From Enterobacter asburiae (lineage in GTDB: Bacteria > Pseudomonadota > Gammaproteobacteria > Enterobacterales > Enterobacteriaceae), in contig JAAQVN010000001.1 in NCBI GenBank assembly GCA_011754535.1, positions 1-64,000 on the forward strand: a stretch of 64,000 nucleotides of DNA, read 5' to 3'. The first letter of the stretch is position 1; every line of letters starts with the position of its first letter. The notes under the pieces were generated by a model, which searched no databases, was not told the DNA's origin, and was given only the letters and a program-made list of their open reading frames with translations. Below, in pieces: positions 30,237 to 32,329 of the stretch. Both the position numbers and the translations under genes were made by a program.

Positions 30237-30331
30237 TTTTTTGGACAAAATCATGAAGGTGATCCATACTCAAAAACGTCAAAATCCGTGCCGGAATTGC
30301 GCGTTCGTCTTCGATCGCGTATACTTTTTGC

Positions 30332-30407
30332 GTTGACGTAACACAGTGTGTTCTGCGGCAACCAACCGCAAAACCCTGATAAAAACCTCGCTTAGGCGGG
30401 GTTTTTT
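30332..30407 (+). ncRNA. istR: Antitoxin small RNA IstR-1
   Basis: The ~76-nt RNA gene starts GTTGACGTAACACAGTGTG, has a central CTGCGG/CCGCA-type stem, and ends in the terminator AACCTCGC-TTAG-GCGGGGTT plus T-run (30384-30407). The layout matches E. coli IstR-1. The promoter TATACT (30320-30325) with TTGCGC 17 bases upstream (30297-30302) suggests constitutive expression. Its 5' segment is complementary to the tisB standby site, so it should block ribosome access. The LexA-controlled longer form, IstR-2, could start near the LexA box but was not resolved. Confidence 0.9.
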
Positions 30408-30733
30408 GTTTTCTGGTCTATCCATAAAAAACTGCTGGATAAGCGAGGGTTCTGCTATTTGGCTTCGCTGTGAACTACTTTGGATCGCTTAAGTAATTTT
30501 CTTTAAATTAGAGGTATTAGACTCATTTTGTAAGATAACACCACTTAATTTATAAACTAATATAACTATTAATAGTCCTCAGGTAGTTAAATTTCTTCGC
30601 CTATAATAGTAATAAATAAAATCGAGCTAACTCATTATTTAAGTGAATGTTTAGTTTAAATAATATGGCTGGTTTGAATTCCAGAGATTTTCATTGTATA
30701 TTTCTAGAGCCGCAAATACTGTATGGATACATT

Positions 30734-31447
30734 ATGAAAGCATCTGAATATTTAAAGATGAAGTTCCAGAGTGACAGGCAGTTAGCTCTTTATGGACAGC
30801 AAGGTGTTGCAGGGACTTGGAGAGCATTAAAGGGGATCGGCTCTGATATTTACTCAGGAATAGAGCGAGTAAGTTGGTACTCTTCTTGCTTAATCCCCAG
30901 CTATCACGATGTATGTGATGAGCTTCTCTCAGAAGAAAAAAGGATGTACCTCTCAATTCTCTCGCTTTACCGTTATCGCGATGTAATAGCCCACATGCTA
31001 TACCTTTATTTTGAAAGTGTTATTACCGATTCTGAAAATGGAAATGAACAAAATCGCGTTCGTAAGATGGATTCAAAAGTAACGGGGCTTGTTAACAACA
31101 TACCGACAAGCAAGGCCGCGCGTTTGGCGATAGCATGGGGGCTGGCCAAATTCTTTTCCGAATCTGGCATACTCTCTGAAATCGTCGTGGAACGGCTTGC
31201 ACGCCGCGTACCTAACGTTGTCATGGCGCTTCAATTGATTGGAACGGAACAGAAGTGTACTCTTGCCGCTCGTCGCCTGAAAACATTGGACCCTAAGTAT
31301 TACGCTACCCTCTATGCCGCACAACTGGAGATGCTTTACTACTTTTTTGAGCCTTTCCTGTCTGAACTTATTAAGAAGGTGCAGATGGGATTCTATAAGG
31401 ATTTCGATGCAATTTATAACGACTTAAAGGGCAAGGAGCATGTTTAA
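30734..31447 (+). CDS. Unrecognised protein upstream of orphan hcp
   Basis: I do not recognise this gene. From ATG 30734 (MKASEYLKMKFQSDRQ) it encodes 237 mostly helical residues. A moderately hydrophobic stretch (about 125-165: ARLAIAWGLAKFFSESG) is followed by an aromatic-rich C-terminal segment (YYATLYAAQLEMLYYFFEPF). There is no signal peptide. An in-frame ATG at 30647 would add 29 residues that look non-coding. Base composition is clearly more AT-rich than the flanks. It overlaps the next gene by 8 bases, and hcp follows, so a role with the type VI system (cargo effector or adaptor) is possible but only inferred. Confidence 0.7.
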   Translation: MKASEYLKMKFQSDRQLALYGQQGVAGTWRALKGIGSDIYSGIERVSWYSSCLIPSYHDVCDELLSEEKRMYLSILSLYRYRDVIAHMLYLYFESVITDSENGNEQNRVRKMDSKVTGLVNNIPTSKAARLAIAWGLAKFFSESGILSEIVVERLARRVPNVVMALQLIGTEQKCTLAARRLKTLDPKYYATLYAAQLEMLYYFFEPFLSELIKKVQMGFYKDFDAIYNDLKGKEHV

Positions 31448-31622
31448 GAGTCTGTTATCAATTCTATTTACGGATATTTTATTCCCCGTTTATATTTTTG
31501 CGTTCGCCTCTTTATTCCTTTGGTCGGTGCCTGACCACTGGGTATTACTAACATTTATTTCTATCATTGTATTTATTATTGTTCATCCGATGATTTTTGG
31601 CCGCTTTGATAAGTACGATTAA
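31440..31622 (+). CDS. Small two-span membrane protein in the hcp cassette
   Basis: A 60-residue protein made almost entirely of two hydrophobic segments (LLSILFTDILFPVYIFAFAS and WVLLTFISIIVFIIVHPMIF) joined by a short polar turn, with a charged tail GRFDKYD. The ATG lies inside the end of the preceding gene, so translation is probably coupled. I do not recognise the family. Size, membrane nature and coupling would suit an immunity protein to the upstream product, but this is a hypothesis. Confidence 0.6.
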   Translation: MFKSLLSILFTDILFPVYIFAFASLFLWSVPDHWVLLTFISIIVFIIVHPMIFGRFDKYD

Positions 31623-31643
31623 ATTTTATAAAAAGGATTTTTT

Positions 31644-32123
31644 ATGTCAAACCCAGCTTATTTGTTTTTAACAGATGAAAATGGTTCTCCCATGGTTGGT
31701 CCTTGCCTTGTGTCAGGGCGTGAGGGTGCGATTGAACTCAAATCGTTCACTCATAATGTCAACATCCCAGTCAACGGGAATACCGGGAAATTGACGGGCA
31801 CGCGTATACACATGCCCATCATGTTCCAGAAAGAATTTGATCGTGTAACCCCACTTCTCTTTCGCGCGCTGAGTACGGGAAGAACGCTTCAGTCAGCCAC
31901 CATTAAGATGTATCAGATTAATGAGGCGGGTTTAGAACAGGAGTATTTTAATATCCTCCTGGAGAATGTGAAAATAACCTCAATCACACCAGACCTGTAT
32001 CTCGGCGCAAACACTGGCACACACCTTGAAACGGTTCTCATACGCTACGAGAAAATCACCTGGAAGCATTGCGAAGGAAACGTCATCTTTAGTGACTCCT
32101 GGAATGAGCGAGCAACGTACTGA
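31644..32123 (+). CDS. hcp: Orphan type VI secretion tube protein Hcp
   Basis: A 159-residue Hcp-family protein whose hexameric rings form the inner tube of the type VI secretion machine. Hcp features are visible: KSFTHNVNIPVNGNTGKLTG, RIHMPIMFQKEFDRVTPLLF, then YFNILLENVKITSITP and HLETVLIRYEKITWKH near the C-terminus. AAAAGGA lies 7 bases before the ATG. No other T6SS structural gene is in the window, so it is an orphan hcp that would depend on a machine encoded elsewhere. It sits immediately upstream of the ivbL promoter region. Confidence 0.92.
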   Translation: MSNPAYLFLTDENGSPMVGPCLVSGREGAIELKSFTHNVNIPVNGNTGKLTGTRIHMPIMFQKEFDRVTPLLFRALSTGRTLQSATIKMYQINEAGLEQEYFNILLENVKITSITPDLYLGANTGTHLETVLIRYEKITWKHCEGNVIFSDSWNERATY

Positions 32124-32230
32124 AACGTGATCCCTGACGCATTTTTGCGCAGATGAAAATATTTCCATTGTCACGCCCTAAAAGCTGTGTTTGTATAAAT
32201 TCCATCAATGATTCCAAACACAGGTCCCCA

Positions 32231-32329
32231 ATGACTTCATCCATCTTCACTTCGACCCTACTAAAAACTGCGCAACCAGCCGCAGTGGTCGTCGTGCGTG
32301 TGGTGGTGGTCGTCGGCAATGCGCCGTAG
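32231..32329 (+). CDS. ivbL: ilvB operon leader peptide IvbL
   Basis: A 32-residue leader, MTSSIFTSTLLKTA followed by two valine runs (AAVVVVRVVVVVGNAP). Stalling at the Val codons when valyl- or leucyl-tRNA is scarce lets ilvBN escape attenuation. The C-terminal half is identical to E. coli IvbL as recalled. A terminator follows 23 bases after the stop. Confidence 0.97.
   Translation: MTSSIFTSTLLKTAQPAAVVVVRVVVVVGNAP

Follow-up and report, generated by a model that had tools for sequence, protein, structure and literature searches.

What occupies the gap between the istR antitoxin RNA and the ivbL leader gene of this Enterobacter asburiae genome, and how did it come to be there? The window analysed here, which covers the opening 64 kb of contig 1 in a genome of 4.96 Mb, carries at this point a 1.7-kb AT-rich operon of three genes on the plus strand. 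We regard this cassette as probably a T6SS effector-immunity-carrier operon with an Ssp6-like toxin.

The insert between istR and ivbL and its site across the genus

The features at and around the insert are these:

30277-30407, plus strand: istR antitoxin RNA (Rfam RF01400, 126.4 bits), whose terminator tail is the left border of the insert
30381-30406: terminator-like stem of istR
30408-30733, plus strand: AT-rich leader of the cassette, which varies among carriers (12-carrier alignment)
30734-31447, plus strand: putative T6SS effector, 237 aa, Ssp6-like family
31440-31622, plus strand: putative immunity protein, 60 aa, with two hydrophobic segments; 8-nt overlap with the effector gene
31644-32123, plus strand: orphan hcp (tssD), 159 aa (PF05638, TIGR03344)
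32122-32230, plus strand: right core flank, the ivbL upstream region, starting at the hcp stop codon
32231-32329, plus strand: leader peptide gene of 32 aa, the in-frame portion of an ORF at 32153-32329

We take the last of these to be ivbL, with coordinates read from the sequence. The initial annotation had described an AT-rich block with genes for a 237-aa protein, a 60-aa two-span protein and an Hcp between the istR terminator and ivbL, and the coordinates, the GC content and the Rfam match agree with this description. The ORF coordinates likewise bear out its statement that the first two genes overlap and that hcp begins 21 bases after the stop codon of the 60-aa ORF. Its right border has to be moved: the conserved flank had been said to resume at about 32162, and it instead does so at about 32122-32124, some 40 bases earlier and overlapping the hcp stop codon. 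In 500-base windows, the GC content is 0.35-0.45 over the cassette block versus mostly 0.52-0.68 in the flanks, and GC3 is 0.45 for the effector gene, 0.38 for the 60-aa gene and 0.51 for hcp, versus 0.76 for ilvB. The earliest ATG in the long ORF (30647) lacks conservation among relatives, so the effector likely starts at 30734. The leader contains a promoter-like match (9/12) at 30674-30702, and matches of this quality are no more numerous than chance would give.

A self-mobile element should bring its own integrase or transposase, or use a tRNA site. By eye, the ORF list of the insert contains no integrase or transposase, the three cassette proteins match no such family, and no tRNA was found within the 64-kb window, so that by this measure the cassette is not a self-mobile element.

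For a view of the site across the genus, the stretch before ilvB was taken from 59 relatives, which together with the window gives 60 sites out of 61 genus genomes (one genome, G032, has no ilvB match and was omitted). We found 25 of these sites to be empty, meaning that the interval is shorter than 400 bases and has no match to six cargo proteins. The cassette is present at 12 sites, a HigB/HTH insert at 17, an antitoxin alone at two (L031 and L040, where the antitoxin gene lies at the site without a toxin gene), and a Tle1-like insert at four. One genome in this last group (G036), where a first pass found no istR, was assigned to its state by a later cargo search. Pfam searches on one example of each insert kind identified a HigB-like toxin (PF09907) with an HTH antitoxin in the first alternative insert, and a lipase (PF09994, PF22137) with one or three DUF3304 proteins, on the opposite strand, in the second. 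Three DUF3304 copies stand beside the Tle1-like gene in each of L054 and L059, and one in L033 and L085. The initial annotation had pointed to presence, absence and alternative genes in this interval as informative, and had named a cassette shared by all relatives with core composition as evidence against its view; what we see is an AT-rich cassette in 12 of 60 genomes, and other cargo or an empty gap in the rest.

The istR-ivbL gap is thus an exchange site in this genus. The inserts of 25 relatives and that of the window share their starting point, behind the istR terminator tail. A flank alignment of about 3.4 kb gave a tree of 51 sites (nine of the 60 were excluded for want of a usable flank), on which site state requires at least 22 changes, as compared with a mean of 26 and a minimum of 21 in 500 shuffled labellings; flank ancestry therefore says almost nothing about it. 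Counted by itself, presence of the cassette requires at least nine changes on this tree; recombination within the flanks is possible and would inflate both counts. The divergence of the cassette and that of the right flank are weakly correlated (r 0.37, 66 pairs). In 11 of the 12 carriers the end of the cassette is the stop codon of hcp, beside the same core flank, and the twelfth (G055) has about 530 extra bases; this would fit a single founding insertion, later spread or lost by way of the flanks, better than it would a self-mobile element. Outside the genus, a hand count of 23 genomes with istR and ilvB on one contig found 235-317 bases between the two, with the gap filled in none of them.

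Four of the 11 HigB/HTH inserts displayed (L062, L041, L065 and L067) carry at their right end another copy of TGTTTTC, a short motif from the tail of the istR terminator, possibly as a microhomology scar.

The three proteins and their relatives

Neither the effector nor the 60-aa protein has a credible family in Pfam, NCBIfam or PADLOC, and PADLOC gave no match for any of the three cassette proteins. The best PDB sequence match to the effector is a designed protein at E 0.013. An AlphaFold2 model of the effector is all-helical and of modest confidence (pLDDT 67.3, pTM 0.64), and Foldseek matched it to no PDB fold at E 0.001. Its most hydrophobic stretches lie within residues 129-169, where the best 19-residue mean hydropathy is 1.03. 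The predicted helices and the hydropathy are compatible with a helical pore former, and are no proof of one.

A protein search returned 159 relatives of the effector; the named ones among the matches listed are hypothetical proteins, mainly from Enterobacter, Leclercia, Atlantibacter and Raoultella. A search with a 13-row alignment gave matches in 118 of the 392 genomes sampled from the host's family, spread over 61 of 154 genera. The cassette DNA itself has no match in the E. coli and phage collections searched. We counted neighbouring genes by script for the best 80 of 107 relatives from named genomes: in 56, hcp follows on the same strand within 1.5 kb, and in 73 the next feature downstream includes a small ORF encoding one or more hydrophobic segments. 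The 24 without a nearby hcp still have, in many cases, the small membrane ORF.

The window's genome encodes a second, diverged unit of this kind, an effector relative followed by a 63-aa ORF and hcp, on the minus strand of contig 1 (112816-111400). Its effector is 25% identical to that of the cassette and its hcp 57%. In this region (L026, contig 1 110805-112816), the hcp gene overlaps a 214-aa ORF that has no Pfam family. A further relative, of 28.6% identity, is found on the 4.4-kb mobilizable plasmid pEAR4.3 of Erwinia amylovora (L092), where a 65-aa ORF lies directly behind it on the opposite strand. We take this gene order to be reminiscent of pore-forming colicin plasmids.

What kind of effector might this be? 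According to Mariano et al. (2019, PMC6889166), Ssp6 of Serratia is a cation-selective pore former that is delivered by a T6SS and neutralised by Sip6, sip6 being a 204-bp two-helix ORF that overlaps ssp6 by four bases. The same text places Ssp6-like genes in T6SS clusters or beside orphan hcp genes, naming K. pneumoniae, and describes their selection by a HMMER bit score of at least 20 and a T6SS gene cluster in the genome. In the window's genome such a cluster is present as T6SS-1, and the effector is followed by a small two-helix membrane ORF (60 aa, 8-nt overlap, two hydrophobic segments). In a K. pneumoniae record, a relative of the effector (25% identity, 87% of the query covered) is followed by a 64-aa ORF and then by an orphan tssD.

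On the Serratia side, in the genus of a named S. plymuthica genome, the family profile matches 12 of 30 genomes, some strongly and some weakly. A weak match (21.5 bits, E 4.8e-4) identified L188, a locus whose nearest named relatives are from Serratia; here a 215-aa gene is followed by a 204-bp two-helix ORF with a 4-nt overlap, just as described for Sip6. Loci of this kind in Serratia have no hcp within the stretch fetched. When an alignment of the window's family (32 rows) was compared with one of nine Serratia proteins headed by L188, the match had 98.7% probability (E 1.4e-16, 184 columns), which is supportive and not independent, as these Serratia proteins had been found with the family's own profile. 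As a single sequence against the window's family, L188 scored 78% in hhalign. No Ssp6 locus tag was found in the names among the protein matches listed. Given its anatomy, the K. pneumoniae counterpart and the profile match to the Serratia relatives, membership in the Ssp6-like family is the best reading of the cassette.

The third protein is a clear Hcp (TssD), with 100.5 bits against PF05638 (curated cut-off 23.5), 128.9 bits against TIGR03344, also exceeding the curated cut-off, and 154.6 bits against the solved chain 4hkh_A. The effector, the 60-aa gene and hcp are all under purifying selection: mean dN/dS is 0.12, 0.08 and 0.07, respectively (55 pairs from 11 carriers including the window), and none of the three has an internal stop across the compared stretch in these carriers. 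The twelfth carrier, G055, was left out of this set as it alone has early stops in the effector; its ClpV gives 14 matches, and we infer from this that sequencing indels are likely. Effectors that had appeared broken in three other carriers (G017, G009 and G049) proved to have a lone TAG at codon 235, merely a slightly earlier end.

T6SS machines and the role of the cassette

Which machine could use the cassette? T6SS-1 of this genome, at about 2.80-2.83 Mb, encodes TssM, L, K, J, F, G, E and A by Pfam, and TssC, an Hcp and ClpV at 2801587-2804130, with Tae4 between tssC and hcp; these are the parts that the component search covered. Its ClpV is 47% identical to the second-type ClpV, and between its Hcp and the orphan one the identity is 25.5% across 98 residues. 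The T6SS-2 Hcps of G025 and G035 are 49-50% identical to the orphan (in G025, ClpV and VgrG come next after hcp); by sequence the orphan Hcp resembles the T6SS-2 type and not that of T6SS-1. In the window's genome, T6SS-2 is a remnant (L029, contig 1 3435-3442 kb) consisting of tssB, tssC, a tssK shortened to 388 codons versus 446-449, and fragments, with no hcp match there. A short ORF in the remnant region looks by eye like part of an integrase.

Among the matches listed, ClpV2 (at least 80% identity) was found in seven of the 12 carriers, two of them partial (G017 and G055), and in none of the other five, namely this genome, G040, G026, G045 and G049. No association between cassette and T6SS-2 is seen in this comparison (seven of 12 carriers versus 36 of 49 others), a hand count among the matches listed in which four of 43 matches are partial, short fragments were possibly missed and the site of G032 was not seen. 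TssC is present in 58 of the 61 genus genomes. The three without a TssC match, G045, G049 and G030, have seven, seven and five orphan Hcp matches, and T6SS-1 is present in this genome, G040 and G026. Constraint persists in the five carriers without ClpV2 (dN/dS 0.15 for the effector, 0.09 for the 60-aa protein and 0.10 for hcp; 10 pairs), slightly weaker than in six carriers with it (0.10, 0.06 and 0.05; 15 pairs). Recent loss of T6SS-2, use of Hcp across types, or retained immunity may each fit the carriers without ClpV2.

The phrase "mobile T6SS cargo module" in the initial annotation therefore holds in part: the cassette is an effector/immunity/orphan-hcp unit, patchy in the genus and accompanied by a second, diverged unit, and no integrase or transposase ORF is seen in it. 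That annotation had also suggested a search for a complete T6SS elsewhere in the genome; the listed parts of T6SS-1 are present, and the system whose Hcp resembles the orphan's is only a remnant. As for cassettes in genomes lacking any T6SS, which would speak against such a module, G045 and G049 are carriers in which TssC/VipB gave no match, two out of 12, yet their cassettes are intact; the other carriers have TssC.

If the cassette is an Ssp6-like operon, the 237-aa protein would be a small, mostly helical toxin that loads into the Hcp encoded beside it. A T6SS would fire the Hcp-borne toxin into neighbouring bacteria, where it would insert in the inner membrane as an ion-leaking pore, and the overlapping 60-aa two-helix membrane protein would shield the producer and its kin. 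With T6SS-2 a remnant in this strain, either T6SS-1 would accept the orphan Hcp or the unit would now be kept mainly for immunity. The gene order and overlap, which match the published ssp6-sip6 plan and its orphan-hcp variant, argue for this operon, as do the K. pneumoniae record, the hcp and small ORFs found beside the relatives, the profile match to the Serratia proteins, the purifying selection on all three genes and the all-helical model; the weak L188 match, low hydropathy, modest model and lack of a PDB fold argue against it, as do the remnant of the matching T6SS here, the two carriers without TssC and the slightly higher dN/dS without ClpV2.

The same facts about machines lend some weight to an immunity reserve, a possibility that we entertain tentatively: the unit would no longer fire here, and the small membrane protein would guard against the same toxin from neighbours while the effector and Hcp ride along. 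This is compatible with the Ssp6-like family reading and differs from it on the role of the unit in this strain. It would suit the T6SS-2 remnant, the five of 12 carriers without ClpV2 among the matches listed, and the retention of intact cassettes (G045, G049) and several Hcp matches (G045, G049 and G030) in genomes without a TssC match. However, a role in immunity alone predicts decay of the effector, and in 11 of 12 carriers the effector shows no more damage than the immunity gene does and is still constrained without ClpV2 (dN/dS 0.15); T6SS-1 exists here, in G040 and in G026.

Two other explanations deny that the 237-aa protein is a T6SS toxin. It is unlikely to be an adaptor or accessory for assembly of Hcp or other cargo: that it belongs to no known family, is helical without a strong membrane segment and, for 56 of the best 80 of 107 relatives, goes together with hcp would suit such a role, but 24 of those 80, many with the small membrane ORF, have no nearby hcp, nor do the L188-like Serratia loci within the fetched stretch. 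Still less credible is an intracellular toxin-antitoxin or phage-defence pair with hcp incidental. The site does hold a HigB/HTH toxin-antitoxin pair in 17 of 60 genomes, and that pair, not the cassette, matches the PD-Lambda-2 models of PADLOC; the absence of PADLOC matches to the cassette proteins and the recurrence of the hcp linkage speak against it.

Beyond the Ssp6-like operon itself, we lean, with reservations, towards a view of the gap as a docking place for conflict modules, in which Ssp6-like/Hcp, Tle1-like/DUF3304 and HigB/HTH units interchange behind the istR terminator without a visible mobility gene. The orphan-Hcp unit would outlive its matching T6SS, and small effector-immunity-Hcp units would serve as portable insurance passed on by recombination through core flanks. 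The locus links an operon that had no annotation with a family of pore-forming T6SS toxins, and its core-genome gap, met in five states (empty, cassette, toxin-antitoxin, antitoxin alone, Tle1-like lipase), amounts to a natural experiment. Together with orphan Hcp units that remain after their matching machine is gone, it makes two questions testable: whether one T6SS type can use the Hcp of another, and whether effector-immunity units are retained for immunity alone.

Comparison with known systems

Searches by title and abstract for ivbL with T6SS and for istR/ivbL/tisB returned no report of such a site, and the main text of a paper on the Enterobacter T6SS pan-genome (PMC13185608) mentions neither Ssp6 nor pore nor ilv. 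In the literature searched, we met neither an exchange site shared by three unrelated conflict modules nor an Hcp unit surviving without its matching machine. The Ssp6-like effector family, orphan-hcp loci included, was already described in 2019 (PMC6889166).

By that published description, the cassette has in common with Ssp6-Sip6 a small helical protein and, overlapping the end of its gene, an ORF for a membrane protein with two helices; its arrangement is that of the orphan-hcp copies of the family, such as the one in K. pneumoniae. The overlap is 8 nt in the cassette versus 4 nt for Sip6, and the operon of the cassette includes hcp, unlike ssp6-sip6. To the Serratia locus with Sip6-like anatomy (L188), the cassette with its predicted toxin bears only remote similarity.

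The Tle1-like/DUF3304 unit is, like the cassette, a T6SS effector-type unit in the istR-ivbL gap, but it encodes an unrelated enzyme on the opposite strand, and there is no hcp match at its four loci. Finally, Reglinski et al. (2025, PMC12669606) describe in S. marcescens an insertion close to ilv genes that carries a T6SS effector together with a membrane immunity gene. By this description the two systems have an effector and a membrane immunity gene near ilv genes in common, whereas the S. marcescens effector is larger (at least 331 residues) and paired with a four-helix immunity protein, as against 237 aa and a two-helix protein in the cassette.
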